Part shown: in pieces, positions 10,333 through 54,426 of the stretch
Position numbering within the stretch: the stretch's first letter is position 1
Layout of the letters: each line of letters opens with the position of its first letter
Assembly: GCA_015232455.1 (NCBI GenBank)
Contig: JADFZQ010000005.1
Coordinates: 62,001 to 126,000 of the forward strand
Reading direction: 5' to 3'
DNA length: 64,000 bases
Source: Desulfamplus sp.
Lineage (GTDB): Bacteria; Desulfobacterota; Desulfobacteria; Desulfobacterales; Desulfobacteraceae
Notes under the pieces: generated by a model
Databases searched by the model: none
What the model was told of the DNA's origin: nothing
The model's input: the letters and a program-made list of their open reading frames with translations, nothing else
Program-made: the position numbers and the translations under genes

Positions 10333-11610
10333 TTAATACATCTCATATTTAACAAGAACCCCATCTAATCCACCTGCTTTTAAAGGCTTTCTCCATGATG
10401 CTTTAAGCCCCATATATTTTGTGTATTCAGGCTCTCCAAAATAGATAAAAGCCTTTGAACCTTTACATCTCTGTTTAAGAAAATCGCCTAACTGCTTATG
10501 AAATATCTTTAAATCCTGATCTTTTCCAATTCGTATCCCATAAGGTGGATTTGCAACAATAACGCTATTCTCTATTGATGGAATATCTTGAAAATCCATA
10601 AGTTTTACAGAGACATTATTGCCAAAATGAAGTCCCATTAAATTTGTTTTAGCAGCATCTACAGACTCTTTTGAGATGTCGCTGCCAGAAATCAGATGCA
10701 GATTCTGCTGTAACTGCACTTGTTGTGATGAATTTTCTTCTTCAGAATCAGCTCCAAAAACTGTTCTTGGTGTAGCAAGCGGAGTGATAGCTGCATCACA
10801 CTCTTTTTTCACAAGTTCCCAAAGTTCAGGGTTATAGTCAGGCAGCATCTGAAATCCAAATTTTTCCCTAAATATTCCAGCAGGGATATTGCAATGGTGC
10901 ATTAAAGCCTCACAAAGCAATGTGCCTGAACCGCACATTGGATCGTAAATAGGAACAGAGCCGTCCCACTCAGAAAATCTAATAATTGCAGCAGCCACAG
11001 TCTCTTGCATAGGTGCTGATATTGATTTTTCCCTATAGCCGCGTTTGTGTAAAGCTCCTCCAGAAGCATCAATGCTTATATCTGCTATATTGTTCCTGAT
11101 GTGAAGATTTATTATTATGTCTGGGTTTATAGTATCAACATTTGGGCGTTTTCCTGTCCTATCCCTAAAATAATCGGCAATAGCATCTTTTAGACGTAAA
11201 GCTGCAAATTGGGAGTGGTCAATGGTGCTGTCTGACACATTATGAACAATGGAGAAAGTTGTTTTTTTAGATATAAGAAGCTCCCATTTGATCTTTTTCC
11301 CATTTTTATAAAGAGTGTCGCTATCAGGGCAGGAAAAGGTGTCAATTGGGGCAAGTACTCTTGATATTAGTCTTGACATGTAGTTAATTTTATAGAAAAC
11401 CGATTTGTCTGCACTAAAGTATATTCCCGTATATGTTGGCTCAATATCTTTTGCACCAAGAGTTTGAAGCTCTTTAACACATTCATCACTTAAATTTTCT
11501 GCAATCTGGGCAAAATACTTAGAATCTTGCTGATATTTAAAACCAGACGCATATCTTTGATGTTCGCCCGCTCTTTTACGTATCACCTGTTTATTGTTTC
11601 TTTCTGGCAT
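10333..11610 (-). CDS. THUMP-domain RNA methyltransferase (RlmL/YpsC family)
   Basis: Probable 23S rRNA guanine-N2 methyltransferase of 425 residues. A THUMP/ferredoxin-like RNA-binding region occupies about residues 25-170. The Rossmann methyltransferase domain follows, with PMCGSGTL (motif I, SAM binding) and the catalytic ANPPYGIRIG motif near residue 355. E. coli RlmL is larger because it is fused to RlmK; this is the short form found in Bacillus YpsC. It lies 20 nt after the Kdo transferase on the same strand. The target base is inferred by family. Confidence 0.82.
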   Translation of the reverse strand: MPERNNKQVIRKRAGEHQRYASGFKYQQDSKYFAQIAENLSDECVKELQTLGAKDIEPTYTGIYFSADKSVFYKINYMSRLISRVLAPIDTFSCPDSDTLYKNGKKIKWELLISKKTTFSIVHNVSDSTIDHSQFAALRLKDAIADYFRDRTGKRPNVDTINPDIIINLHIRNNIADISIDASGGALHKRGYREKSISAPMQETVAAAIIRFSEWDGSVPIYDPMCGSGTLLCEALMHHCNIPAGIFREKFGFQMLPDYNPELWELVKKECDAAITPLATPRTVFGADSEEENSSQQVQLQQNLHLISGSDISKESVDAAKTNLMGLHFGNNVSVKLMDFQDIPSIENSVIVANPPYGIRIGKDQDLKIFHKQLGDFLKQRCKGSKAFIYFGEPEYTKYMGLKASWRKPLKAGGLDGVLVKYEMY

Positions 11611-11630
11611 ATTTTTCTCTATCCATAATG

Positions 11631-13112
11631 TTATATATAATGTTTTATAGTATTACAAACAATTGAAGTGCCACCTTGTTTTTTTTGAATATATTCAAGG
11701 CTTTTTTCAATAATATCGCGTTTATTAGGAGGGTTTCTAAGAGAGTTAAGAATAAAATTTATAACTTCATCTCTGCTCTTTGCTCTTTTAACTATATTAT
11801 CACCAAATATGTTATCGTTACTAAATATCTCTTCTCCAACCCATGCAAAATCATCGGTAAATGGACCTGTTACTGTGGGAACTCCTGCAATTAGAGGCTC
11901 AATAAAGTTGTGTCCTCCAAGTGGCTTTAAACTTCCACCAACAAACGCAACAGTTGAAGTTGAAATTGAATAGGCATCTTTCAACTCTCCAAATATATCC
12001 CATAAAATGACAGTACCTAAAGATAATGATTCTATTCCGTTTATAAGTCCTTTTTTCAACTCTGATCTAAGAATCCATTTATGTTTTTTCTCTGTAACTA
12101 CCTTTTTCCAAAAATCAATGCGATGTTGATGACGTGGGAATAGGCATATAAACTGTTTCGGAAATTGTTTAATAAGTTCATCAATAATTATAATTACATC
12201 CTCTTCCTCTTCTTTGCGAACAGATGCGAGTATTGAAATGGGTATATTTGCTGCCAAGCATCCTATATTTAGGGTTGAGTATATGTTTAAGGGCGAATTT
12301 GTATTGAAAATTGAATTTATATTTGATTTTTCAGGACATTTACAAAGTGTGTCAAATTTCATATTTTGCATTACATCAATATGTGATGTTGGAAAAATAT
12401 CTCTAAACCTTTGTGCATCTTTATCGCTGATTGCAAGAATGGTGTCGGGCTGCAATTTATCCCATAACCATCTTGTTAGCATGTAGTTTCTATGGCTTTT
12501 TTTTGATAATCTGCCATTTACTACAGCAACCTTAACGCCATATTTTTTCGCAGCAAACAAAAGAGATGGCCAAAGTTCTGTTTCAATAAGGACAATAATA
12601 GAAGGCTTAACTTTGCATATAAAGCGTTCCATTAAGTCAGGTATATCAAATGGAAACCATGTTATGTTAATAAAATCTTTCTGTTTTGATAACAAAGTTT
12701 CACTATGCATCTTAACCCGCGATAAAATGGATATTCCTTGTGCAGTAGTTGATGTAAGTAAAATCTTTGGCGGCTGGTTATTAGCATATCTCTTGTTAGA
12801 GCAGAGATTGTTTTTCTCAGAACATCTATTGTTTTGGTTGGAATCTCTATTTTTTATGGTAGGCTCTTTTATTATAATTTCGCTATGAAGTTTTTTAACA
12901 AGCTCAACAGCAAGATTAGACTCACCTGCAGATGCACCATGTATCCATATACCAGCTTTTTTAAGGTGATCTGATGATGTCCGCTCTTTTAAACCTTCAT
13001 TCAATCTTACGTTTCTCTTAAGTATCGGAAGTGCTAACCACCAGAGAAAACGGTAAAGATTCAAAAATAAAAATATTATTGTGCTATTTTTCATATTAAA
13101 GTATGGTCTCAC
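11631..13112 (-). CDS. waaA: 3-deoxy-D-manno-octulosonic acid (Kdo) transferase, paralog 1
   Basis: Transfers Kdo from CMP-Kdo to lipid IVA at the inner membrane. An N-terminal membrane anchor (about 11-32) precedes WIHGASAGES with the catalytic Glu64, then IVLIETELWPSLL, AVVNGRLSKKS, and the C-terminal nucleotide-binding part GGSLKPLGGHNFIEPL. The opening codon is GTG; an ATG six codons in (13094) is an equal candidate, since neither has a good ribosome-binding site. At 493 residues it is longer than E. coli WaaA (425); the excess includes an Asn/Lys/Arg-rich insertion at about residues 82-114. msbA is divergent. A second Kdo transferase lies at 38519. Confidence 0.85.
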   Translation of the reverse strand: MRPYFNMKNSTIIFLFLNLYRFLWWLALPILKRNVRLNEGLKERTSSDHLKKAGIWIHGASAGESNLAVELVKKLHSEIIIKEPTIKNRDSNQNNRCSEKNNLCSNKRYANNQPPKILLTSTTAQGISILSRVKMHSETLLSKQKDFINITWFPFDIPDLMERFICKVKPSIIVLIETELWPSLLFAAKKYGVKVAVVNGRLSKKSHRNYMLTRWLWDKLQPDTILAISDKDAQRFRDIFPTSHIDVMQNMKFDTLCKCPEKSNINSIFNTNSPLNIYSTLNIGCLAANIPISILASVRKEEEEDVIIIIDELIKQFPKQFICLFPRHQHRIDFWKKVVTEKKHKWILRSELKKGLINGIESLSLGTVILWDIFGELKDAYSISTSTVAFVGGSLKPLGGHNFIEPLIAGVPTVTGPFTDDFAWVGEEIFSNDNIFGDNIVKRAKSRDEVINFILNSLRNPPNKRDIIEKSLEYIQKKQGGTSIVCNTIKHYI

Positions 13113-13225
13113 ATTTTTTGAATATTGACAATACTTATAGCAAGAGCAAGATATACCATCAATATTATAAAATTAAATATTATTTCTATTTCAAATTCAA
13201 TTTTATCATTATGAGAGCTCATTTT

Positions 13226-13260
13226 TAGATTTGACAACTTTTCAAAAGTTGTCAAATCTA
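13226..13260. repeat. TTTGACAACTTTT palindromic repeat, copy 2
   Basis: Perfect palindrome with 17-bp arms TAGATTTGACAACTTTT and its complement around a single central base. It lies between divergent waaA and msbA, so it is not a terminator for either. Confidence 0.85.
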
Positions 13261-13296
13261 CATTTAAAGACAATTTCTAAAAATTTAAGATGAAAA

Positions 13297-15084
13297 ATGA
13301 AAAAGAATTTTCTAAAATATTTAGATGATAAAAACAGAGAACGTTATAAATCTTTGTTTCACGTTATATGGCAACACTGGGAAAAACTCTTTTTTGCAAT
13401 GATTTGCATGGTTGTTGTGGCAGCCTCAACTGCTGCATCAGCATATCTTGTAAAACCAATGCTTGACGATATTTTTGTTAATAAAGATAGCAATGGACTT
13501 CTTTTTATCCCAGTTGCAGCAATTACAGTTTTTCTACTAAAAGGAGTTGCAACTTACGGACAAAACTACTTGATGAGTTATGTTGGGGAACAGGTTATAA
13601 AGTCATTTAGAAATAGACTTTATGAAAATATTATTGACCTTCCACTTGCCTTTTTTAATCAAGAAAAGACAGGAACTTTGATGTCAAGAATTACCAATGA
13701 CGTAAATATTGTGAAGGGAATGGTATCAAGTGCGGTTACAAGTTTGTTGCGTGATTTTTTTACTGTAATTGGTTTGATATGCGTTATTTTCTATATGGAT
13801 TGGAAACTTGCAGTATGGGCATTTTTGGTTCTTCCAGCAGCGTTCTATCCAATTGTAGCTTTTGGCAGAAGGGTTCGTCGTTTTAGCACAGGGTGTCAGG
13901 AGGCAATGGCTGAAATAAATGTCTTTTTGCATGAGACATTCTCAGGCATCAAAGTTGTTAAGATATTTACAATGGAGTCTTATGAAAAAGAGAGATTTAA
14001 AGAAAAAACAGATGCTCTTTTTAGGCTTGAGATGAAATCAGTTGTTGCAAAATCTCTCTCTTCGCCAATCATGGAGTTTTTAGGAGGAGTTGGTATTGCA
14101 TTTATAATCTGGTTTGGAGGTTCAAGGGTTATTAGCGGAATTTCAACTACTGGCACTTTTTTTTCGTTTCTAACAGCAGTAATGATGCTTTATGATCCTG
14201 TAAAAAAACTTACAAATCTTAATAATACAGTCCAAGAAGGGCTTGCTGCAATTACAAGGATTTATGATGTTATAGAGCAGAAACCTGAAACTGAGAGAGT
14301 TGAAACTCAGTTCTCTATTGATCAAAACCAAATGGAAATCACATTTGACAAGGTGTTTTTTAAATATAAAAATGAGAACGATGATAATAATGACAATGAT
14401 AAAGATAACTTATGGGCATTAAGTGATATTAATCTCAGTGTAAAAACAGGTGAAGTAGTTGCACTCGTAGGCATGAGCGGGGGTGGTAAAACTTCGCTTG
14501 TGAACCTTATTCCAAAGTTTTATGATGTTACAGAAGGTAAAATTACAATTGGAGGAGAGGATATTAGGGATATTCCCCTTTCTTCACTTAGAAGTAGAAT
14601 CTCTATTGTAACCCAAGAGCCAATTCTGTTTAATGAAAGTGTTCGAGATAATATCCGTTACGGGCGACTTGCTGCCTCTGATCATGAGATAGAAGATGCG
14701 GCAAGAGCTGCTTATGCCCACGATTTTATAACAGGATTTCCAAAAGGATATGACACTATAATAGGAGAGCTTGGCAGCCGCCTTTCTGGTGGAGAAAAGC
14801 AGAGAATCTGTATTGCAAGAGCTTTGATAAAAGATGCACCGATTCTGATCCTTGATGAAGCAACTTCAGCTCTTGATGTTGAAGCTGAAAAGATTGTCCA
14901 AAAAGCTCTTGCAAATCTGATGAAAGGTAGAACAACTTTTGTAATAGCTCATAGATTATCTACAATTGCCCATGCCAACAAAATTATCCTCATTAATAAA
15001 GGCAAAATAGTTGAGTCAGGCACTCATGCAGAGCTTATGGCAATGGGTGGAGAGTATTTTAAAATGCAAGTTATGAATAAATAA
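13297..15084 (+). CDS. msbA: Lipid A export ABC transporter MsbA
   Basis: Homodimeric exporter that flips lipid A-core across the inner membrane. The 595 residues hold an N-terminal six-helix transmembrane domain (about 1-320) and a C-terminal ATPase. The ATPase shows Walker A GMSGGGKTS, Q-loop VTQEPILFNESV, signature RLSGGEKQRICIARAL, Walker B ILILDEATSALD and the His switch IAHRLST. A short Asn/Asp-rich insertion (NENDDNNDNDKDN) lies just before the ATPase core. It is divergent from a Kdo transferase gene, supporting a lipid A role over a generic multidrug exporter. Confidence 0.9.
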   Translation: MKKNFLKYLDDKNRERYKSLFHVIWQHWEKLFFAMICMVVVAASTAASAYLVKPMLDDIFVNKDSNGLLFIPVAAITVFLLKGVATYGQNYLMSYVGEQVIKSFRNRLYENIIDLPLAFFNQEKTGTLMSRITNDVNIVKGMVSSAVTSLLRDFFTVIGLICVIFYMDWKLAVWAFLVLPAAFYPIVAFGRRVRRFSTGCQEAMAEINVFLHETFSGIKVVKIFTMESYEKERFKEKTDALFRLEMKSVVAKSLSSPIMEFLGGVGIAFIIWFGGSRVISGISTTGTFFSFLTAVMMLYDPVKKLTNLNNTVQEGLAAITRIYDVIEQKPETERVETQFSIDQNQMEITFDKVFFKYKNENDDNNDNDKDNLWALSDINLSVKTGEVVALVGMSGGGKTSLVNLIPKFYDVTEGKITIGGEDIRDIPLSSLRSRISIVTQEPILFNESVRDNIRYGRLAASDHEIEDAARAAYAHDFITGFPKGYDTIIGELGSRLSGGEKQRICIARALIKDAPILILDEATSALDVEAEKIVQKALANLMKGRTTFVIAHRLSTIAHANKIILINKGKIVESGTHAELMAMGGEYFKMQVMNK

Positions 15085-25532: not shown

Positions 25533-26748
25533 AAACCTCACCGTCAATGGCAAGAAGGACTCCGCACCAGATCATAATAAATCGTCCCTCAGTAAATGTA
25601 GAAAAATGTGTGGAGAATAGGCTTGTAGCACACCATGCTGTTAAAACTCCAATAGCCAAAATACGAGTAGGCTCTTTAGAACCTTTTTGTAAAAAAAATG
25701 CCGCAATAAAGGCAAAAAAGATCAGCAATCCTATAAACCCATGCTCTACAGCTATTCTTAAATATTGATTATGAGGATCAGTAGAAGGCTCTCCTTCCAA
25801 ACCATTTTTCCCTTCAATCTGCTTTTGATAGGCATTTTGAAAAGCCCCTGTGCCATAACCCAAGAGCGGATATTCAAGATTTTGAAGAAGATCAATTGTC
25901 TGTTTCCACATCACCATACGAATTCCCATAGATGTAATATAAGGAGAATTTTCATAAGTTTTGATCTCATCTATTCCCATTTGGATTCTATTTTTAGCAA
26001 CTGGCGATAGTATAAATATACCAGCAAGTGCCAATGTCGTAATACAGATAATCACATAACGCCACTTATTGACGATATTAAATAATATAAAAAGAGTGAT
26101 TAATATATATAATGCTGCGTAACCGCTTCTTCCAGGAGTTATATAAACTACATTGTAAAACAAAATTGCTGTAGATAATTTTAACAAAATAGAGGAGAGC
26201 CTGCTTAAATTTGAATATTTAGGATAACGGAGCATAACAAGGCAGATATAAATAGATACAGAAAAGAGCATACCTTGAGTTGCATGGTTATGCAGAACAA
26301 TTCCAGCGTCATACTTGTAAATATTAAACGCAAAAATACTACTTAAAAAAGATAGTAAAGAAGCAAATATTATAAAACAGAGAAAAGAGAAGATAAAACG
26401 TTTTTTCCAGATAGAGTCATCATAAACACTTATAGCAATAGGGATAAGAAGTAATTTTCTCCAGCTTCCCCAAATGCTTATACTTTGAGACATATCAGCA
26501 ATGGTGTAAAAAAGTCCTATGGTTATAACTCCATAAAGTAACAGCGACATAATTACTAAAGGTTGCTTTATTTGAGATATAATTCTACTTCGTAACTGAG
26601 GGCTAATCAATGCAGAGAAAAATATCAAAACCTCAATAATCTCAGCAGGGGCTGTAAAAAAAGAGATTAAGATAATCTCAAGAATAATAAGAACTCTTAC
26701 AAATGTTAGGGAATCTAACTTAAAAAGTCTGTTTATAATATTTTGCAT
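25522..26748 (-). CDS. O-antigen ligase family protein (WaaL-like)
   Basis: An integral membrane protein of 408 residues with about ten hydrophobic segments and one large periplasmic loop near residues 270-350. The family motif is visible: LLGYGTGAFQNAY and DPHNQYLRIAVEHGFIGLL. Such proteins join polysaccharide to lipid A-core on the periplasmic face, but the family also includes polymerases and other glycan ligases, so the role is inferred from its place among LPS core genes. It lies 5 nt after the GT9 gene and overlaps the GT25 gene. Confidence 0.78.
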   Translation of the reverse strand: MQNIINRLFKLDSLTFVRVLIILEIILISFFTAPAEIIEVLIFFSALISPQLRSRIISQIKQPLVIMSLLLYGVITIGLFYTIADMSQSISIWGSWRKLLLIPIAISVYDDSIWKKRFIFSFLCFIIFASLLSFLSSIFAFNIYKYDAGIVLHNHATQGMLFSVSIYICLVMLRYPKYSNLSRLSSILLKLSTAILFYNVVYITPGRSGYAALYILITLFILFNIVNKWRYVIICITTLALAGIFILSPVAKNRIQMGIDEIKTYENSPYITSMGIRMVMWKQTIDLLQNLEYPLLGYGTGAFQNAYQKQIEGKNGLEGEPSTDPHNQYLRIAVEHGFIGLLIFFAFIAAFFLQKGSKEPTRILAIGVLTAWCATSLFSTHFSTFTEGRFIMIWCGVLLAIDGEVYGS

Positions 26749-26753
26749 ATTGT

Positions 26754-27884
26754 TTATCTTTTACCTAAAATTGCCTCAAGAACATCTTGAACAGTTAGAT
26801 CATTCATGCAGCTCCAATGGCTGCACGGCTTTTGAGCATAACATGGAGAGCAATTAAGGGGTTTCTGGATAATTGTATGAATGGATATTTTTTCTGATTC
26901 TTGGTTTAGATTAGACTTCCCCATCAAGAGTTCCTTAGATATTTCAGCTTTTATACTAAGTTTCTCTTTTTTTATAGAATCATAAGGTCCAGTTCTTACT
27001 GGGTTTGCAGGTCCAAAAATGGCAAACACAGGCACGTTTAATGCTGCTGCAACGTGCATAGGACCCGTGTCATTTGTAATAAAATATTTAGCTTTACCAA
27101 TTACAGGAATCAAATCCTTTAAGCTTGTCTTTCCAGCAATAGATATAGCTTTACCATTTGAATATTTTACAACCTCATTTGCTATTGAAATATCTTGTGG
27201 AGAAGAGCCGCTAATTACAACAGAAGGAAGAGGCAACATAGATGCAAGCTCTCCAAACCTTGATGCGTGCCACTGATTTGCTCGTTTTCCAGCAGATGGA
27301 GAGATAATCACATATTCTGATGGAATCTCTTGCATAATTTTTGGCTTTTCGTCAAATGGGGCAAATGGGTAAGCTACAGCGTCTATTGGGCAGCCAAGGG
27401 CTTCGGCAAATTTTAAATAGCGGTCAATGGCGTGGATAGTCATATCTCCTTCTATTTTATGGGAATAAAAAAAGGGGCTGCCTTCATCTGACTCTCTAAA
27501 TCCAAGTTTAACCTTTGCTCCTGACGCAAACGCTATAAGTCCACTTCTGAGTATTCCAGATAGATCAACAGCTATATCATATTTCTCGCTTCTTAAACCT
27601 TTTGTAAGTGTAGCAATCTCTTTAAACGTATTTTTAAGATAATTTAGCCTTTTCCACTTATCTTTTTTGATTACCCAAAGTTTGTTAATCATAGAGTGTT
27701 CTTCAAGAAACTTATGAAGTCCATCAGCTACAACCCAATCAATTTGAGCATCTGGATATCCTCTTTTAAGTGCATTTAGAAATGGAAGGGTATGGACAAT
27801 ATCGCCAAATGCACTTGGTTTAATAATCAATATCTTATTTATTGAATTTGTTTTTATGAAATTCTTATTTATAGAGCTTAACAA
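26754..27884 (-). CDS. Glycosyltransferase family 9, heptosyltransferase-like (WaaC type)
   Basis: Probable ADP-heptose:LPS heptosyltransferase of 376 residues. The start KILIIKPSAFGDIVHTLPFL and WVVADGLHKFLEEH, the central DVAVDLSGILRSGL-like stretch, ISPSAGKRANQWHASRFGEL and FITNDTGPMHVAAALNVP are GT9 hallmarks and resemble WaaC. A Ser/Asn-rich stretch lies at about 310-335. CSPCYAQKPCSHWSCM near the C-terminus is Cys-rich as in several GT9 proteins. It lies 45 nt after the Rpn gene and probably acts on inner core LPS. Confidence 0.82.
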   Translation of the reverse strand: MLSSINKNFIKTNSINKILIIKPSAFGDIVHTLPFLNALKRGYPDAQIDWVVADGLHKFLEEHSMINKLWVIKKDKWKRLNYLKNTFKEIATLTKGLRSEKYDIAVDLSGILRSGLIAFASGAKVKLGFRESDEGSPFFYSHKIEGDMTIHAIDRYLKFAEALGCPIDAVAYPFAPFDEKPKIMQEIPSEYVIISPSAGKRANQWHASRFGELASMLPLPSVVISGSSPQDISIANEVVKYSNGKAISIAGKTSLKDLIPVIGKAKYFITNDTGPMHVAAALNVPVFAIFGPANPVRTGPYDSIKKEKLSIKAEISKELLMGKSNLNQESEKISIHTIIQKPLNCSPCYAQKPCSHWSCMNDLTVQDVLEAILGKR

Positions 27885-27929
27885 AAATTGTATCCTTATT
27901 TTTTTATAGTAACTTCTTAGCTCTGAGGC

Positions 27930-29174
27930 TCAAGCTATCTCCTGAACTTTTGTTAAATCAATGTTTAACATTTTTGCAATCTCACCATTTGAATATCCTG
28001 CTTTTTTAAGAGAGCTAATCGCCGTTCTTTGAATTTCTTTGCTACTTTGTAAAACCTCTTCTTTGGCTTTACGTTCTTCTTCACTTTTTCTTAAAGCCTC
28101 TTCTTTAGCTTTTCGTTCTTCCTCTTTGGATTTACGCTCTTCTTCACTTTTTCTTAAAGCCTCTTCTTTAGCTTTACGCTCTTGTTCACTTATTCTTAAA
28201 GCCTCTTCTTTGGCTTTACGCTCTTGTTCGCTTATTCTTAAAGCCTCTTCTTTGGCTTTACGCTCTTGTTCACTTACTCTTAAAGCCTTTTCTTTAGACT
28301 TTCTCTCTTTTTCTTTAGCTTTTCGCTCCTTCTCAAGCTCAAGCAAAGCCGTGGTATATTGCTGTCTCAGCCTCTCTTTTCGGGCTTCTTCGCCTCTTTG
28401 AACTCTTAAAAATTCTTCGTGGAGGCGATACTGTTCTCTTAGTCTGTCATCTTTTGTAAAAGTTTGCAGCATGTTAAATACCTCCTCTATTCCTTTGTTT
28501 TGATTAAAAACAGGGGCAAGCGGTTTGGAATTATCCTGAATAGTTCCTAAAAAATAACTCCAAAGTTCAAGCTCTTTGTTAAAAGAGATTATACTCTCAG
28601 TTTCTTCAGTAGTTTTGTTGCGTTTGGCTTTCTCAAAACATTTGAGGAACTTGTTTAACTCAACATAGTAAAGATTCCAATGATTTATTAGCGGCTGATG
28701 TGTTCTAATATTAAGCATTCTATAGTGGTTAAACCAGAACTCCTCTTCATCTTTTTCTTCAAAAATTGAGTCAACTAAAAGATGGATGCCGTAACAGGCT
28801 CTGAGTTCATCATAATTATGTTCACTGCTCTTTTTCAACTGATCACGATACATTCCAGCAAGATAATATTTGGAGCGTTCTTTATAATCAGACGTTCTTA
28901 CAACCTGCACCTCCAAATCTATCCATTCCTGAGTATCAGTATCTTTTGCCCTTACATCAAGTATGCCCTGTTTTTCATTTGTAAACGGCTCATTGGCATC
29001 ATAAGGGTTTAGAATCTCAACCTCTGAAAATGTGGGTTTGATATTTTCAGCACAATCACACTCATCAACATCATAAGAGACAACAGCGTTTAGAAAACAG
29101 ATTAACGGATAGGTCTGTTCCTGCCTTCCAAATACCCATTTAAACACAACATCATTGTATAATTTGATTTCCAT
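27930..29174 (-). CDS. Rpn-family PD-(D/E)XK nuclease / transposase-like protein with coiled-coil repeats
   Basis: A 414-residue protein of the Rpn (YhgA-like, PDDEXK_2) family. The N-terminus LYNDVVFKWVFG and GILDVRA with Asp73, then WIDLEVQVV with Glu88-x-Gln90, give the nuclease core; RSKYYLAGMYRDQL follows. Rpn proteins promote recA-independent recombination and some act in phage defence. Residues about 281-377 are a charged coiled coil built from repeats of SEQERKAKEEALRI (42-bp units in DNA). The tail AISSLKKAGYSNGEIAKMLN looks like a small helix-turn-helix. It follows the cyclase-NACHT gene by 25 nt. Confidence 0.82.
   Translation of the reverse strand: MEIKLYNDVVFKWVFGRQEQTYPLICFLNAVVSYDVDECDCAENIKPTFSEVEILNPYDANEPFTNEKQGILDVRAKDTDTQEWIDLEVQVVRTSDYKERSKYYLAGMYRDQLKKSSEHNYDELRACYGIHLLVDSIFEEKDEEEFWFNHYRMLNIRTHQPLINHWNLYYVELNKFLKCFEKAKRNKTTEETESIISFNKELELWSYFLGTIQDNSKPLAPVFNQNKGIEEVFNMLQTFTKDDRLREQYRLHEEFLRVQRGEEARKERLRQQYTTALLELEKERKAKEKERKSKEKALRVSEQERKAKEEALRISEQERKAKEEALRISEQERKAKEEALRKSEEERKSKEEERKAKEEALRKSEEERKAKEEVLQSSKEIQRTAISSLKKAGYSNGEIAKMLNIDLTKVQEIA
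28044..28328. repeat. 42-bp tandem repeat inside the Rpn-family gene
   Basis: Three near-identical 42-bp units lie at 28159-28200, 28201-28242 and 28243-28284, flanked by degenerate units on both sides. Each codes for 14 residues (SEQERKAKEEALRI type), keeping frame and coiled-coil phase. Differences between units are single bases, pointing to recent expansion. Confidence 0.85.
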
Positions 29175-29199
29175 ATATTCTTAATATTTTATCCTGTTA

Positions 29200-31872
29200 T
29201 CAATTAACCTTTGAAACTGCTTGTTTCTCGCCAGCCTTTTCCGCTTCTCCTAAATCCGCAAAATATTCCAGTAAAAACCTGTGGATAAAAATATAGCCTC
29301 CGCCAACTCTTTGTAAAAAAATCAGTTTGCAAGCGTGGTCAAGAAAAGGGGCATAATTTAATGGAGCATCGTTTTTGAGATAAAGGAAAAGTCTGATGAG
29401 ATAATGTATTAAAACATTGAATACTCCAAACTGAAATATCCCAACTAGAGCGAATATGAAAGAAAAGGAGAAAAAAGAAAATTTTAAGAGAGAATAAAAA
29501 AAGATAAAAGGTAACGCACAAGCAATCCAAATAATTGTTCCCATTATTAAAGAGTTTTTAACTGCAAGCTTTGTTCCTTCATTCACAGTAGTCTTGCTGC
29601 TTGAAGGGATTCCTTTTGTGTTAAAGGTAACAAGAAATAGAATCATTAAACAATAGAATAGATAACAAGCAAAAATATAAGGTTCTCCGTATAGCATTTT
29701 TAATGGAATCACATAGGATAAAAAAAGGAAAAGATAAAGCAATACAAGAGATATTCTTTGTTTCATAGCTAATTGAGCTAATTGAAAAAAATAGAAAAAG
29801 GGGGAAAAAGAAATTTTTTCAAAAGCATATTTATTTTCAGACTTCTCAAGTAACCCTATTGAACCCAATAGCGAAGCCAAGAGAATTACTATTATAAAGC
29901 CCATAAAGCCCATTATTGTGTCTATTGCACCTGTTGAGAATCCTTCTCCTACACCTCTAAATATTCCAAAAAACAGATTAACAGGATTAATTATCTCATG
30001 AAATTTAGTATCTCCTACCATTACAGTCATATTCAATGTAAAAAAAAGAATAAATAAACCAAACAAAAACACCGTAAATAAGCTAAATGTAAACGCACAA
30101 CTCCACTTATAGCCTTTGGTGTCTATCCAGTTAAAATCTATATCTTCCATTAAAAAATTACTTTTAGAAAATTGTTTCATCTTCCCCGCAAGCCATGAAA
30201 GATAGTGGATTGTCTTCTCTTTTGGATAAACAGCCTCTTTACCGCCTTTACGCCTGAACATACGCTCTACGTAATGATTAAATAACTCTTTGCGGGTTTC
30301 CTCAACGCTTTTTCTATTGTCTTTGCTGATTGGTTCATTTGCAGAATCTGAAGTGTTTCCATCATAAGAAAGAGCCATAATGTTGAGCATCAGCGGCGAT
30401 GCTGCAAGCTCTTTCAAATTCTGATCTTTCTCAAGTATTGCCTTTAATTGGACTGATGAATCAACTTTATTGAGGTATTCATCTACATCATTGCTGCCAA
30501 GTGGTTTAATGAAAACAGCACCGTTCAGTTTCAGACGTTCGGATATTTCGCTGTATTCCTTGACCCGGCTGGTTACCACAACTCCTCTGACTCCGGAATC
30601 ACAAATAAAGATGTTAATGGCTTTAAGACAGGATTCCCTGTGCTCTTTTTTCACCTCATCAAAACCGTCAAGCAGCGGCAGAATACGGTTATCTTCTATC
30701 CACTTTCTTTCATTGGTCAATCGCTTTGGTATCTGGTATTTAGACCTCAGTTCATCAGTCAGATAATCTTGCAAAGATTTATATTTACGCTCGTCCCAGC
30801 CTGACAGGTTAAAAAGCACTGGAATTGGATATAGTGAATCAATTTTTGCCCGATTGATAAGCTCGTTTGTCAATTCAAGAAGAGTGATGGTTTTGCCGCT
30901 GCCCGGCTCCCCAGTAATAAGAAGATAGCCGTTAAACTCATCAAAAACATCAAGAATAATTTTCCCTTCAATAACTGCTTCCCTGTTTTTTACAGGAACT
31001 TCTAAAACATTCTCCCAAGGATGTTCAACAGCATCTGGTCTGTATTCCCTGCCAAGTTCTATCCTGATGTTGTTATAGAGAGATTTCTCCAAAACCCCTT
31101 CAACCCAGAAAGTTTTGACCTTATCAAGCAGAATTAAGAGATTATTTCTATCTTCTGTTAAAGGTTCGGAGATAACCATATTGCTTGAAGATTTTGACCA
31201 AGATGGTTTTGATTTCGGAGCTGATGGAGCTTTGGGAGTTGTTATTGCTTTTTCATACGCCTCAAAAATGGAAACAGGCTCAGATATTCCCTTGACTTCA
31301 AATTCTCCGTGACTTGCAAAAGCATATTTTTCATCTTTTATCCACCCTGCTGCATTTTCATAAACTGATGATGAAAGATAGATATGACCGCCGTCTGCAA
31401 GAGATTCAATACGGGCAGCCCGATTGACATGCCGTCCAAAGACATCAAGAGATGTGTTGTTTTCAACTGAAACCTGACCCATGTGCAGCCCGATACGGAC
31501 AATGATTGGCTCTTCACACAATCCGCTGCTATTGTAGTCATAGAGCTTTTTTTGTATCTCCAAAGCACGCTCAACAGCAACTGAAGGCTCTGAAAAAACC
31601 GCCATGATTGAGTCGCCGATATTTTTGATGTAGATGCCTCTATTATCTCTCTCAATTATTTCAAGAAGCATCTGATTGTGCAGGCGTCTCATCTCGTTGG
31701 TGAAAGTTTCGCCTCTTCTTTCTGCTATTTCAGTTGAGCCTTTAAGGTCTGTAAACATTATTACAAGAACCGCTGTATCCTGTCTTGACCTGAAATCATT
31801 AACTTTTTTAAGCTCTTCTGGACCAAGCTCTTTATTAATCTTAATATTTATCTCATCAGAAGTTATAGCCAT
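29200..31872 (-). CDS. Class III nucleotide cyclase-NACHT-membrane fusion protein
   Basis: A fusion of 890 residues (counting below includes one upstream TTG codon). Residues 35-175 are a class III cyclase with both metal Asp (FTDLKGST, Asp43; NIGDS, Asp88), Lys84 and Asp144 in the purine-specifying positions, and Asn151/Arg155 for catalysis, so it appears active and adenylate-type. Residues 310-450 are a NACHT NTPase: GEPGSGKT (322-329), ILPLLDGFDEV (398-408), VVTSR. About eight hydrophobic segments span 590-835, and the tail has the GGGYIFIHRFLLEYFA pattern of membrane NACHT proteins. It lies 11 nt after waaF and before the Rpn nuclease gene. I chose ATG at 31872 with AAGGA upstream. Role unknown; signalling or phage defence is inferred. 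Confidence 0.82.
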   Translation of the reverse strand: MAITSDEINIKINKELGPEELKKVNDFRSRQDTAVLVIMFTDLKGSTEIAERRGETFTNEMRRLHNQMLLEIIERDNRGIYIKNIGDSIMAVFSEPSVAVERALEIQKKLYDYNSSGLCEEPIIVRIGLHMGQVSVENNTSLDVFGRHVNRAARIESLADGGHIYLSSSVYENAAGWIKDEKYAFASHGEFEVKGISEPVSIFEAYEKAITTPKAPSAPKSKPSWSKSSSNMVISEPLTEDRNNLLILLDKVKTFWVEGVLEKSLYNNIRIELGREYRPDAVEHPWENVLEVPVKNREAVIEGKIILDVFDEFNGYLLITGEPGSGKTITLLELTNELINRAKIDSLYPIPVLFNLSGWDERKYKSLQDYLTDELRSKYQIPKRLTNERKWIEDNRILPLLDGFDEVKKEHRESCLKAINIFICDSGVRGVVVTSRVKEYSEISERLKLNGAVFIKPLGSNDVDEYLNKVDSSVQLKAILEKDQNLKELAASPLMLNIMALSYDGNTSDSANEPISKDNRKSVEETRKELFNHYVERMFRRKGGKEAVYPKEKTIHYLSWLAGKMKQFSKSNFLMEDIDFNWIDTKGYKWSCAFTFSLFTVFLFGLFILFFTLNMTVMVGDTKFHEIINPVNLFFGIFRGVGEGFSTGAIDTIMGFMGFIIVILLASLLGSIGLLEKSENKYAFEKISFSPFFYFFQLAQLAMKQRISLVLLYLFLFLSYVIPLKMLYGEPYIFACYLFYCLMILFLVTFNTKGIPSSSKTTVNEGTKLAVKNSLIMGTIIWIACALPFIFFYSLLKFSFFSFSFIFALVGIFQFGVFNVLIHYLIRLFLYLKNDAPLNYAPFLDHACKLIFLQRVGGGYIFIHRFLLEYFADLGEAEKAGEKQAVSKVN

Positions 31873-31883
31873 CAATATAATCC

Positions 31884-33074
31884 TTATATTTTTAGTGATG
31901 CCTGTAAGACTTTTTTCATAACTATATCTACAGTGATTTTATTCATACAAACATGGTGGTCTATATCGCCTTTATCTTTAGGACAATGAACTTTAAGGCA
32001 TGGGCTGCATGGAACAGGAACACGTATCATAACGCTGTTTGGGCTTGATGGGGCTGTGGCAATATGGTCTGTTGAGCCAATAATGGCGATCTGCTTTGTT
32101 CCAAGTGCTGCTGCTGCGTGCATGAGTCCAGAATCGTTGGTTATAAATAGATCACATTTTTCTATAAGAGCAAATGCCTGCCTAAGAGTTGTCTTACCTG
32201 CAAGATTTACGCATATCGGTGTTGCTTGATTAATTAGCTCATTATCTGATTGATTATTAACTATTTGATTACTTGATTGTGGGTTAATTGATTGCCTGTT
32301 TGCTTGATTAATTGTTTGAGCGTTTGATTGAGATACAATTTTATTAATCGTATCCCCAAGCTCTTTGTCTGCTTGACCACCAAATATCAATATTTTTGTA
32401 TTAAATTTCTCTGACAACCTTTTGGCAAGTTCAGCATATCTTTCAGGAAACCATCTTTTTGCTGTTCCACCTGTAGCTCCTGGATTGATGCCTATTACAG
32501 GCTTTTTTGGACTATCTATTCCATAACTTGCAAGAGTTTTGAGAGCTTCGGTTCGCTCAACATCAGATATAAACAGGTCAAGTTTTCTGCCATCGTCAAT
32601 AAAATGCCTGAGATTCCCACAAAACTTATGATTAGAACCTTTTAATATACCTCTATAATAATCAATCAAATGACCCTTTTTAAGCCTTTTATCCATTTTA
32701 ATTGATGGGTTTAAAAGTAATCCTCTGCCGTCAGTGTTGTATCCAATACGCACAGGGATTCCAGCTAAAAATGTAATTAAGCCAGCTTCAAAAGCGTTCT
32801 GCATAAGTATTGCAACGTCAAATGAGTGTTTGCGGATATCTTTTACAAGTCTTAATGTTCCCAAGCCTTTATTATGCCGTGTCTCATTTTCATAAACCAT
32901 TATCTCATCAATATATGGATTGTTGCTAAAAACAGGGATCACCCAAGGTTTGGCAAGAAGAGTAATATGTGCATTAGGGTAACTTTTTCTGATAGCTCTT
33001 ATAACAGGGGTTGTCATTATGGCATCACCAACCCAGTTTGCAGCTCTGATTAAAATTTTAGTTTTTTTGCTCAT
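31884..33074 (-). CDS. waaF: ADP-heptose:LPS heptosyltransferase II (WaaF-like)
   Basis: GT9 enzyme of 396 residues adding heptose to the LPS inner core. WaaF hallmarks: ILIRAANWVGDAIMTTPVIR, LPNSFEAG-like MQNAFEAGLITFLAGIP, INPGATGGTAKRWFPERYAE and FITNDSGLMHAAAALGTKQI. A Gln/Asn/Ser-rich insertion of about 40 residues near 250-290 (encoded near 32220-32345) splits the C-terminal domain between ILIFGG and VNLAGKTTL; E. coli WaaF has 348 residues, so the insertion explains the excess. It lies 6 nt after the acyltransferase gene. Confidence 0.88.
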   Translation of the reverse strand: MSKKTKILIRAANWVGDAIMTTPVIRAIRKSYPNAHITLLAKPWVIPVFSNNPYIDEIMVYENETRHNKGLGTLRLVKDIRKHSFDVAILMQNAFEAGLITFLAGIPVRIGYNTDGRGLLLNPSIKMDKRLKKGHLIDYYRGILKGSNHKFCGNLRHFIDDGRKLDLFISDVERTEALKTLASYGIDSPKKPVIGINPGATGGTAKRWFPERYAELAKRLSEKFNTKILIFGGQADKELGDTINKIVSQSNAQTINQANRQSINPQSSNQIVNNQSDNELINQATPICVNLAGKTTLRQAFALIEKCDLFITNDSGLMHAAAALGTKQIAIIGSTDHIATAPSSPNSVMIRVPVPCSPCLKVHCPKDKGDIDHHVCMNKITVDIVMKKVLQASLKI

Positions 33075-33080
33075 TCTATT

Positions 33081-34004
33081 TTATTGTTTTTTAGGTAAAA
33101 GAGAATAGTTTTTAAATTTCCACCTGTTATGAATCCAAAACCACTGATCAGGATAACGCCTGACAATAGATTCGATTGCAGATGTGTAATTTTGGGTGTT
33201 TATTTCAATATCCTTTATTTTATCACCTGTATAGACCGTTGGAATTTCAGGCTCAAAATACATCACATGGTTAAATCCTTCACGAATAATATAAGCAGGC
33301 ACTACAGCAGTTTTAGTTCTTAACACTAATGACGCAACACCACTTGTTGTGCATGTAGCTCTTCCAAAAAAATCAACAAAAACACCTTGATACCACCAAG
33401 GATCAACACTTTGATCCATAAGAGTTCCAACAAGCTCGCCAGCTAAAAGATGCTCTTCAATCTTCTTAGTTGCTCCTTTTAGAGGGATCATGCAAGTTCC
33501 ATATTTTTCCCTCATTTCACGTATGAATCTATCCAAAGGCGTAAAATCAAGTTTTCTGTATATAGCAGATGATTTATACCCAGTAAGTGCAATAGAAGCT
33601 ACAAGAAGTTCCCAATTACCTATATGACAGAGTATAATCAAAACACCCTTTCCCTTTTTGTATGCCTGCTTTAAGTTTTCAAATCCTCTGAGTTTAAAAT
33701 ATTTAGGAAGTTCTTCTCTTTTAAGTCTATATGCCCACCCAATTTCAAATAGCATTCCAGCAATATTTTTAAATATCTTTTTTGCAAGAATCTGCTCTTG
33801 ATGTTCTGTCAGTTTAACCAAGTTGTTTGATTTTCTCCCTAAAGAGAGACAGATACTTTCAAGAGTAAGGTCTCTATGCCGTTTATCAATTTTGAACCAT
33901 ATAAGCCCTAAAAAATCCCCAAAAACTTTACCTATATGTTTTGGAATAAGCCCTATTAGATTCATAATAACAGTTAAAATATGGTAGATAATTTCATTTT
34001 TCAT
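33081..34004 (-). CDS. Lysophospholipid acyltransferase, LpxL/HtrB family
   Basis: Probable late acyltransferase adding a secondary acyl chain to Kdo2-lipid A. The 307 residues have an N-terminal hydrophobic segment (about 7-30) and the HX4E catalytic motif ILCHIGNWELL, then IYRKLDFTPLDRFI, GTLMDQSVDPWWYQGVFVDFFG and a closing HNRWKF. The order waaF-lpxL on one strand with core glycosyltransferases supports lipid A modification. Which position it acylates cannot be read from the sequence. Confidence 0.85.
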   Translation of the reverse strand: MKNEIIYHILTVIMNLIGLIPKHIGKVFGDFLGLIWFKIDKRHRDLTLESICLSLGRKSNNLVKLTEHQEQILAKKIFKNIAGMLFEIGWAYRLKREELPKYFKLRGFENLKQAYKKGKGVLIILCHIGNWELLVASIALTGYKSSAIYRKLDFTPLDRFIREMREKYGTCMIPLKGATKKIEEHLLAGELVGTLMDQSVDPWWYQGVFVDFFGRATCTTSGVASLVLRTKTAVVPAYIIREGFNHVMYFEPEIPTVYTGDKIKDIEINTQNYTSAIESIVRRYPDQWFWIHNRWKFKNYSLLPKKQ

Positions 34005-36162: not shown

Positions 36163-36426
36163 TTATCCAAAAAATTTTTCATAATCATCGTGGCTTCCGA
36201 TCCATAGCCATGTAACAGTGTCGTTTGCAAGAATTCCCAATGCTCTAAAGTTTCGAGTAATTCTTACTGACCATATATTTTCTGATGAATTTATACATTT
36301 AAACTGTAATGAAGGGTGAAATGGATCATTAAACCAGAGGCTATATTTTTTTCTCGCCTTTATTTTAATTTTTTGATCTAATTTTAAATAGGCATTCCAA
36401 AAAGATGGAAGTGTTTTGGAATTCAT
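36163..36426 (-). CDS. RelE/HigB-like toxin of a type II toxin-antitoxin pair
   Basis: An 87-residue protein of the RelE/ParE superfamily. The alternating pattern KARKKYSLWFNDPFHPSLQFKC-type N-half (given loosely), WSVRITRNFRALGI and WLWIGSHDDYEKFF at the C-terminus fits HigB/RelE-like mRNA interferases; the SHDDYEKF end is common in these. The ATG overlaps the upstream antitoxin stop by four bases. It is embedded in the LPS operon between GT2 and lpxK. Toxicity is inferred by family only. Confidence 0.75.
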   Translation of the reverse strand: MNSKTLPSFWNAYLKLDQKIKIKARKKYSLWFNDPFHPSLQFKCINSSENIWSVRITRNFRALGILANDTVTWLWIGSHDDYEKFFG

Positions 36427-36653
36427 AATTGACTTATATCCATAGGCGTTGCTTTGCCTTCAGCAATCTCTTTTTTTGCCTGCTGTGCAAAAGCAACAAG
36501 CCTATTTTGAGTTCTTGAAAATGATTGACTCCATTTTAACTCATCTTGGATTTCTTGTATATATTTCCTCATGTGTTCCAAAACACGCTCTTGTATCTGT
36601 TCTGGAAGAGTCTCAAATAACTTTATCATAGTGTGAGTATTCGCAGATTCCAT
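36423..36653 (-). CDS. Antitoxin partner of the RelE/HigB-like toxin
   Basis: A 76-residue helical protein with no recognisable HTH; an LPEQIQERVLEHMRKYIQEIQDELKW region (given loosely) forms an amphipathic helix, as in small antitoxins that wrap the toxin. Antitoxin-first order and the ATGA overlap with the toxin are typical. GGGGT lies just before the ATG. It follows lpxK by 10 nt, so the pair may depend on the LPS operon promoter. Confidence 0.7.
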   Translation of the reverse strand: MESANTHTMIKLFETLPEQIQERVLEHMRKYIQEIQDELKWSQSFSRTQNRLVAFAQQAKKEIAEGKATPMDISQL

Positions 36654-52323: not shown

Positions 52324-54426
52324 CTAAAATTCAATAAAACTTTTGAGTTTTTTACTACGAGTCGGGTGTCTGAGCTTTCTTAATGCCTTTGCCTCGATTT
52401 GCCTTATTCTCTCACGAGTTACTGTAAAATCTTTTCCAACTTCCTCAAGAGTGTGGTCTGCCTTTTCTCCAATACCAAATCTCATTCTAAGAACTTTCTC
52501 CTCTCTTGGAGTTAAAGTTGCAAGAACCTTTCTTGTCTGTTCAGCGAGGTTTAAATTAATTGCCGCATCAGATGGCAATGAAAACTTCTTATCTTCAATA
52601 AAATCACCAAGATGGCTATCTTCCTCTTCACCAATTGGGGTTTCAAGAGAGATTGGTTCTCTTGCTATCTTTAATACTCTACGCACCTTATCAAGCGATA
52701 TTTCCATCTTTTCAGCAATCTCTTCTGGAGATGGCTCTTTTCCCATCTCTTGAACTAAATAGCGTGATGTTCTAATAAGTTTGTTAATTGTCTCAATCAT
52801 GTGGACTGGGATTCTTATAGTTCTTGCTTGATCCGCGATAGCTCTGGTTATTGCCTGTCTTATCCACCATGTAGCATAGGTACTAAATTTATAACCTCTT
52901 CTATATTCAAACTTATCAACAGCCTTCATTAAACCAATATTGCCCTCTTGAATTAGATCAAGGAATTGAAGCCCTCTGTTAGTATATTTTTTGGCAATAC
53001 TAACTACTAAACGTAAGTTTGCCCGAACAAGCTCGCTTTTGGCATCTTTTGCCTGCATTCTACCTTTATCAATACCTTTAACAATTTTTCTAAGGGAGGT
53101 TACATCTCCCTTTAACATACTTTTCTTTTTTTCAATTTGATCGTTAATAAATGTAAGATCAGAAAAGAGAAGACGTGCACGATCTTCGGTTATATCTGAA
53201 TGTTTTGTTGACCACTCTATAAATCTATTGGGATCGGATAGCTCAATAGACAAATCATCTCTTCTTGATTTAAAAGTTGCGGCACATCTTTTGAGTAGAT
53301 TATCCATGACATCAAACCATTTAATATTATTTCTTATCTCTTTTTCAATATCATCTATAATACTGTTCTCTATACGCCATACCTTAAGAAGCTCGTATAT
53401 CTCTTCGTTATTGCTTTTAATATCATTTTTAAGTTTTCGGATATAGGCAAGATCAAGATCAGGATTGCAAATTTTATCTCTCTTTTCCTGATTTTTTATA
53501 TGAACAGCACGAATATCTGAAAGAGTTTTTAACACTTTTTCACGTTTTTCTGACTCATCTGCAAGAATATCTCCCTCATCAACGTCTCGTAGAAACTGCT
53601 TTAGAGGCATTCGTTTTGACTCAATACGATCTCCGCGTAACAAAAGAGCATTGACAGCAAGTGGGCTTGCCAACATAGATTTAAGAATCTCATGCTCACC
53701 AACCTCAATTTTCTTGGCAATCTCTATTTCACCTTCCCGACTTAACAGTGTAACCATACCCATTTCTCGAAGATACATCTTAACGGGATCAGTTACGGTA
53801 CCAAACTCCATATCATCAGTAGATTTACCACTAAACTGACTACTTCTTTTAATTTTACGTATCTTCTCTTCTTTATCGCTCCATCTATCAATATCAGAGT
53901 CATCACTTGGCATAGATTCATCATCAGACATAATATGTTTTCTCATATCACTTCCATCTCTTTTATACTGCTCATTTAATGGTTTGTATGAATCTTTTAC
54001 ACTTTTATGTTGATCTTTTGATTTATTACGCTCGCTGCCAATTTTCATTTGTTGATTTGTCTGTTGAGTTGCAGATTTACAAGAGTCACGCATAACTTCT
54101 TTATCATTTATAGCTTTATCACTCTGTTCTCTCTCTTTTTGTGCTTGATTTTGTCTCTCTCCCTTAACAGTACGTTCTATAGACTTTTTATTCATATTTT
54201 TTGAATCATCTTTGTCTATATTGTCTATCTCGACAAGTTTAATACCAAGTTCACTAAAACTCATAAGTATATTATCGATCTGATCGGAAGATTTCACATT
54301 ATCAGGAATGATCTCATTAATTGAGGCATAAGAGAGAAATCCCTCTCTTTTTCCTTTTTCAATCAAATCCTCCATTTTTTTTCTTAAAGTCCAATTATCT
54401 TTAGATTCAACCGAGTTTATTGCCAT
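52324..54426 (-). CDS. rpoD: RNA polymerase primary sigma factor RpoD (sigma-70)
   Basis: Housekeeping sigma factor, 700 residues. Region 1.1 at the N-terminus, region 1.2 with [21 protein letters not shown], regions 2.1-2.4 with [36 protein letters not shown] and [20 protein letters not shown], region 3, and region 4.2 with [20 protein letters not shown] are all clear. A highly charged, Lys/Asn/Gln-rich insertion (about 72-205) lies between 1.1 and 1.2, longer than in E. coli. It follows dnaG by 26 nt. rpsU is not in the group. Confidence 0.95.

Follow-up and report, generated by a model that had tools for sequence, protein, structure and literature searches.

What does a protein that joins a class III nucleotide cyclase to a NACHT NTPase and a set of membrane helices do among the lipopolysaccharide (LPS) glycosyltransferase genes of Desulfamplus sp., and does it work with the Rpn-type nuclease gene beside it? 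The locus lies in a stretch of 64,000 nucleotides (assembly GCA_015232455.1, contig JADFZQ010000005.1, positions 62,001 to 126,000 of the forward strand), called here the window, to which all coordinates refer. With slightly better than even confidence, the cyclase-NACHT-membrane protein P0001 (the fusion) is read as a membrane NLR-like switch with a class III cyclase as its output, and a response to stress or to an invader is its most likely purpose. The fusion contains the following features.

29200..31872, minus strand: cyclase-NACHT-membrane fusion P0001, 890 amino acids (open reading frame and Pfam)
31285..31767, minus strand: class III nucleotide cyclase domain, residues 36-196, catalytic residues present (Pfam and alignments)
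30463..30924, minus strand: NACHT NTPase domain, residues 317-470 (Pfam)
29383..30105, minus strand: membrane segment of about six helices, residues 590-830, divergent relative to the sister copy beyond about residue 585
29248..29325, minus strand: conserved closing segment C-terminal to the membrane helices, about residues 850-875, with GGGYIFIHRFLLEYFA (alignment)

Counted from its ATG, the frame (31872-29200) encodes 890 residues; a TTG one codon earlier is a possible start. Pfam identifies a Guanylate_cyc domain (2e-19, 70.3 bits, cut-off 21.9) and a NACHT domain (5.4e-9, 36.5 bits, cut-off 26.7), the latter with Walker A (GEPGSGKT, residues 321-328) and Walker B (LLDGFDE, residues 400-406) motifs. 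Hydropathy above 1.6 marks segments 590-621, 645-678, 705-729 and 729-752 and a merged stretch at 769-830, which amount to about six helices. A first-pass annotation had already described this 890-residue, three-part protein, and the minus-strand frames, domain scores and helices bear it out. It had also placed the helices at a simple C-terminal end, a point that does not hold: a conserved closing segment, RVGGGYIFIHRFLLEYFA, lies C-terminal to them (FIHRFLLEYF at residues 862-871). Because this segment comes after the helices, they look inserted within the helical/winged-helix part of the NACHT module. Of the tripartite NLR plan, the fusion contains a NACHT domain with both Walker motifs and an N-terminal effector or signalling domain, the cyclase. 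The unusual architecture is real and represents a new variant within a membrane NACHT/NLR-like family.

The roles of the metal-binding Asp, base-specifying Lys/Asp and catalytic Asn/Arg positions are well established for class III cyclases. Read against solved cyclases and relatives, the fusion has the complete adenylyl cyclase set, namely metal-binding Asp42 and Asp87, purine-specifying Lys83 and Asp143, and catalytic Asn150 and Arg154, as the first-pass annotation had noted in calling the cyclase intact. The solved structures nearest to the domain are Ma1120-type cyclases (2.9e-19), and Pycsar-type structures match far more weakly (7r65, which we take to be the PycC structure, 2.6e-4; the 'uridylate cyclase' 8jsz, 0.0069), in agreement with the earlier assignment to a purine type rather than to Pycsar. 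The output is probably cyclic AMP (cAMP). The window's genome encodes eight cyclic-nucleotide-binding domains over cut-off, which are possible receivers of the signal.

Sequence comparison places the NACHT-membrane part in an NLR-like family. It aligns from the pre-NACHT helix to a closing 'VGGGYIF.HR'-type motif with proteins of Rivularia, Crocosphaera, Phormidium, Oscillochloris, Sphaerospermopsis, Nostoc and Acaryochloris, and the aligned relatives retain the membrane part whatever their N-terminal part. Plasmid records matching it number 29 (23 cyanobacterial and six actinobacterial, by name), and the best relative in the PDB has an E-value of 0.27. Forty-three loci (L057-L099) were scanned with local profiles, built partly from the same sequences. 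A cyclase lies inside the NACHT frame in one of the 43, L057, which is the sister-species copy (G005) described below. CHAT domains are fused N-terminally, over cut-off, in L058 and L094, and L096 has a piece below cut-off; a TIR_2 gene (114 bits) lies directly upstream in L064, which encodes the same protein as the locus of genome G139, and a Trypco2 gene precedes L094. Separate cyclase genes occur within a few kb of the NACHT gene at three Pseudanabaena loci (L067, L082 and L088). A DNA-binding regulator was considered for the N-terminal part of L066 and rejected, there being no such Pfam match.

Other relatives share a motif with the gene upstream. The test covered 13 loci whose upstream frame has at least 70 residues and compared this frame with the N-terminal part of the receptor, with shuffle controls. 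A shared motif was found in seven of them at 0 of 500 shuffles (L059, L060, L093, L095, L097, L098 and L160) and in L061 at 5 of 500; none was found in L094, L064, L058, L062 (two upstream frames) or L096. Crossing the eight best pairs yielded two groups, L059/L060/L093 and L095/L097/L098, that match within the group, with no matches between groups apart from one intermediate value (4/200); L160 reaches 0/200 with its own partner only. The loci are not all independent, since L059 and L060 come from one genus, as do L095 and L097. These motifs are amyloid-like by resemblance only, with no BASS family assigned. L160 is genome G646, from the same order, and contains the closest homologue found outside the genus (41% over query residues 24-401); its upstream gene has a HetE-N domain (PF20701, 28.9 bits, cut-off 25). 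The fusion's own linker (residues 206-262) shares no motif with the upstream glycosyltransferase (150 of 300 shuffles as good) or with Rpn (143 of 300). Here a cyclase fills the N-terminal slot; in relatives this slot, or the gene directly upstream, can contain CHAT, TIR or a shared motif. In G646 (C69; L172, 6563-10085), the HetE-N gene upstream of a NACHT-membrane-Sel1/TPR protein has the N-terminal motif of that protein in common with it, and none of the other receptors tested matches this gene as well.

The fusion and Rpn genes are flanked by GT9 glycosyltransferase genes, one on each side, that belong to an LPS-type cluster.

31884..33074, minus strand: GT9 (heptosyltransferase-type) gene, left flank of the insertion (Pfam and same-genus comparison)
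27930..29174, minus strand: Rpn-type PD-(D/E)XK protein P0002 (PF12784), 414 amino acids, with C-terminal repeats (open reading frame and Pfam)
27930..28472, minus strand: putative internally started small protein, RpnS-like, 180 amino acids (AGGAGG at 28481-28486, 8 nt before the ATG)
26754..27884, minus strand: GT9 (heptosyltransferase-type) gene, right flank of the insertion (Pfam and same-genus comparison)

The first GT9 gene was matched in nine of ten same-genus genomes. In seven of these nine (G001, G002, G003, G004, G006, G007 and G009) the two GT9 genes are adjacent; the remaining two are the window's genome (G000), with the insert, and G005, with the two sides on separate contigs. Because the flanking genes are adjacent in those seven genomes, the fusion-Rpn pair is inserted accessory cargo rather than ancestral content of the cluster. 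The position among LPS genes is as first annotated, with the two flanking genes as the insertion site, but none of the tests linked it to phage receptors, as that annotation had suggested. The gap between the upstream GT9 gene and the fusion is 11 nt (8 nt with the TTG start), and all six terminator-like sites in 26700-33100 lie on the strand opposite to the fusion.

The fusion is rare. Used whole as a query, it matches 83 of 98 relatives, and among the matches listed only those in G000 and G005 reach past the cyclase and its linker (beyond residue 240). The NACHT-membrane part alone finds matches in 7 of the 395 genomes searched from the phylum and in 18 of the 389 from the order. Those that reach into the membrane half are in G000, G005 and G646; that of G139 covers the NACHT part (32%), and the others are shorter NACHT stretches (25-33%). 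No cyclase is present in the N-terminal parts of G139, G304, G258 or G646. Among the genomes searched, the fusion occurs in one relative only, Desulfamplus nS315bin44 (G005; contig JADGBE010000062.1 of a metagenome-assembled genome, MAG), and thus in two of ten Desulfamplus genomes, several of which are incomplete. The widespread orthologues that the first-pass annotation had counted as a case against its reading were not encountered. Carriage by a phage or plasmid was considered and dropped: the fusion has no match among the phages searched, and 0 of 500 matching plasmid records cover 80% of the query. A pattern-limited scan of viral contigs found one NACHT at 23% identity.

The G005 fusion occupies the same locus, and its two halves differ sharply in their divergence from the window's copy. 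Residues 1-580 show 92.9% amino acid identity, with a synonymous divergence (dS) of 0.24 (0.237) and a nonsynonymous divergence (dN) of 0.034, which fits purifying selection. Identity breaks near residue 585, and residues 581-780 show 29.3% identity over 174 aligned codons (dS 1.08, dN 0.72). The four flanking genes compared have dS values of 0.24, 0.19, 0.26 and, for an acyltransferase, 0.71. A VNEG/PNQG segment and other family marks are retained in both membrane halves; because they persist, the divergence of this half is interpreted as homologous replacement or very fast change. This pattern suggests an exchangeable membrane sensor. That the sensor was swapped as a cassette, with the cyclase-NACHT half under purifying selection, the membrane half replaced by a distant homologue near residue 585 and the cAMP output kept, is a tentative and somewhat doubtful extension.

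The G005 frame stops at residue 772, within sequence that has eight matches in the window's genome (a repeated element). On the other G005 contig the second GT9 gene comes after a DDE_3 transposase gene, and about 100 nt just before and into this GT9 gene match the window at 93%, 46 nt of them being the end of the Rpn gene. Because G005 retains this 46-nt tail, the fusion-Rpn pair was present in the common ancestor of both species and has been broken in G005.

The Rpn gene starts 25 nt downstream of the fusion on the same strand (frame 29174-27930), just as first annotated. Its product, P0002, matches PDDEXK_2 (5.9e-33, 114.9 bits, cut-off 27.4), falls below the cut-off of the NCBIfam Rpn model TIGR01784 (45.4 vs 52.1 bits), has repeats with periods of 21 and 42 nt, and contains no cyclic-nucleotide-binding domain in the Pfam search. 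Copies were sought in 56 genomes at a threshold of 55% identity across 295 or more query residues: G000 has three, including the window's, G005 has three, and G001, G002 and G007 have one each. Among seven compared genes (three from G000, three from G005 and one from G007), the repeat-bearing C-terminal parts vary and total length ranges from 355 to 414 amino acids. In all seven, an in-frame ATG at codon 233-241 has AGGAGG 8 nt ahead of it; 47% of their Glu codons are GAG and the genes are related to one another, so that the seven cases are not seven independent events. Rpn proteins are reported antiphage toxins with a genes-within-genes RpnL/RpnS plan (available part of PMC10327210). Because the internal ATG and AGGAGG fit this plan, the segment at 28472-27930 of the window (minus strand) is a candidate for an internal antitoxin of RpnS type within the PF12784 family, and control of Rpn may lie with this antitoxin instead of the cyclase.

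How, then, might the fusion work? At rest, the helical membrane domain set into the C-terminal helical/winged-helix part would keep the NACHT domain closed at the inner membrane. A disturbance sensed by the membrane domain would open the NACHT domain, which would then oligomerise. The active site of class III cyclases forms between two subunits, and because of this construction oligomerisation would bring the cyclase domains together and start cAMP synthesis. Cyclic-nucleotide-binding proteins of the cell would receive the cAMP, or its excess would harm the cell. The fusion gene arrived as cargo between the LPS glycosyltransferase genes with Rpn, itself a separate defence-type gene carried alongside. 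A stress or invader response, in the form of phage defence or cell arrest, is the most likely purpose. A defence purpose is favoured in that the insertion is patchy, the platform is NLR-like, Rpn accompanies the fusion and the membrane half has diverged. A role of the fusion in phage defence is plausible.

Several observations weigh against this switch. PADLOC detects generic cyclase similarity in the fusion (PycC, 5e-10) and names neither the fusion nor the Rpn protein as a known system, the latter matching 0 families. Seven other cyclases in the same genome indicate that ordinary cAMP signalling exists, which the fusion could feed for other reasons. All searches together found two fusion sequences, so that no repeated association supports the purpose, and the cut-short G005 frame indicates that the gene can be lost. 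The N-terminal slot has no assignment in L061-L063, L065, L066 and L099. As for the sensor, the fast fourth flanking gene (dS 0.71) points to uneven divergence across the cluster, and the G005 membrane half lies within the last 700 nt of a MAG contig, where a false join is possible.

Some of these points would suit an ordinary envelope-stress or metabolic cAMP sensor, in which the NACHT-membrane part senses the envelope and the cyclase tunes expression with no role in defence. The purine-type cyclase has its residues, the genome holds both the eight cyclic-nucleotide-binding domains and the seven other cyclases, and the fusion is probably co-read with the LPS genes, given the 11-nt gap and the absence of same-strand terminator-like sites in 26700-33100. 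Such a sensor is nevertheless rather unlikely in view of the patchy occurrence in the genus, the CHAT, TIR and shared-motif parts of platform relatives, and the unusual divergence of the membrane part. Occurrence in two species only, one of which shows a 46-nt Rpn tail, transposase material and a cut-short fusion frame, is what would be expected of passing cargo, acquired once with Rpn and now decaying with little present function; the complete window frame with all motifs and the low dN relative to dS in residues 1-580 make this quite unlikely.

The first-pass annotation had proposed that the sensor, its nucleotide signal and the nuclease form one unit, so that cAMP made by the fusion would switch on Rpn. 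The argument for such a link is adjacency: the spacing is 25 nt on the same strand, the pair is common to two species at one site, and Rpn proteins are reported antiphage toxins (PMC10327210, as above). The pair, however, goes back to a single insertion event, close Rpn copies occur elsewhere in the same genomes, and the second species has lost nearly all of this one. Rpn has no cyclic-nucleotide-binding domain, the linker motif test was negative, and a candidate start for an internal antitoxin lies within the Rpn gene itself. The cyclase-NACHT-nuclease unit was accordingly given up as very improbable. Least probable of all is a reversal of roles, with the membrane part as a killing pore and the cyclase binding nucleotides as a sensor or regulator. 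The membrane part is large, and shared-motif STAND relatives pair with small upstream genes of putative role, but the cyclase retains its catalytic residues, the membrane part is kept in aligned relatives whatever the N-terminal part, and bNACHT/STAND proteins have the effector N-terminal and the sensor C-terminal (available text of PMC12169576).

If the membrane NLR-like switch is real, a bacterial NLR-type receptor would have as its output cAMP, which has long been known as a second messenger, and a single NACHT-membrane platform would carry a cyclase in the position that a protease-like domain, a TIR gene or a shared, possibly self-assembling motif occupies in others. That only the membrane half diverges abruptly between two species offers a direct way to ask whether this half is the sensor. 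Were cassette exchange also true, it would represent a modular change of what an immune receptor sees, with the cAMP output kept.

A small two-gene unit in the same LPS cluster (36163-36653, minus strand), consisting of a 76-amino-acid gene with no Pfam match followed by a ParE-like gene (PF24732, 39.2 bits, cut-off 24.4), looks like a toxin-antitoxin pair. PADLOC was also run on ten other window open reading frames, from 54 of at least 120 amino acids. Two genes at 10333-15084 are partly similar to the defence models mads_2 and mads_3, and a 700-amino-acid protein (52324-54426, minus strand) has C-terminal similarity to the MzaA model (241.6 bits). Another NACHT of the window's genome is an NNH3-NACHT-pentapeptide protein (L156 3179-6010, G000:C11). 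A NACHT-pentapeptide protein on C11 lies about 4 kb from a PAS-cyclase, an arrangement taken as chance. A second cyclase-NACHT neighbourhood, at C22:91622, was rejected: a response-regulator cyclase lies near a 1959-amino-acid kinase-AAA_16-GAF-histidine kinase protein, the NACHT match of which is below cut-off.

A cyclase-NACHT-membrane protein was not found described in the literature searched, a body that leaves most subscription papers outside. Pycsar shares with the fusion a class III cyclase, and the PADLOC similarity is to PycC. The fusion differs in its purine-type Lys83/Asp143 (PycC, for which the available part of PMC11224242 gives the active-site residues, was not compared residue by residue), in the NACHT fusion and in the lack of an adjoining Pyc effector, since the neighbours GT9, Rpn and GT9 contain no Pfam cyclic-nucleotide-binding domain. 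Pycsar membership was dropped on account of the purine-type residues and the missing effector. The Rpn gene resembles RpnL/RpnS in its PD-(D/E)XK N-terminal part, variable repeat-bearing C-terminal part and candidate internal start, an ATG with AGGAGG. It differs in family, PF12784 as opposed to the PF04754 of the E. coli proteins (available part of PMC5350276), and in its repeats of 21 and 42 nt, as opposed to the four-residue repeats described in PMC10327210.

In the accessible text of PMC7159879 and PMC8195603 (Kaur 2020, 2021), ternary and related conflict systems use cNMP cyclases as signal modules beside NTPase switches, as the fusion would. The cyclases described there have as fusion partners VMAP or vWA parts, effector-associated domains, bDLD3 or TRADD-N, and those parts of the papers contain no cyclase-NACHT-membrane protein. 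Bacterial NLR-amyloid pairs consist of an NLR with an N-terminal amyloid motif and a small effector gene of Bell type (available part of PMC7889193). The NACHT-membrane platform likewise occurs with a motif common to receptor and upstream gene in G646 and several cyanobacterial plasmid and genome loci, whereas the window has a fused cyclase, no shared motif and no small upstream effector gene. Three of the seven loci with a shared motif at 0 of 500 shuffles (L095, L097 and L098) have it near the N-terminus of the upstream protein, unlike the C-terminal position in Bell (PMC7889193). The bNACHT proteins, as far as PMC12169576 is available, offer a closer parallel in plan: bNACHT25 has an N-terminal PD-(D/E)XK DNase, and the fusion likewise combines a central NACHT with an N-terminal catalytic domain, with a cyclase in place of the nuclease and membrane helices in place of the SNaCT or NCH1 C-terminal domains.

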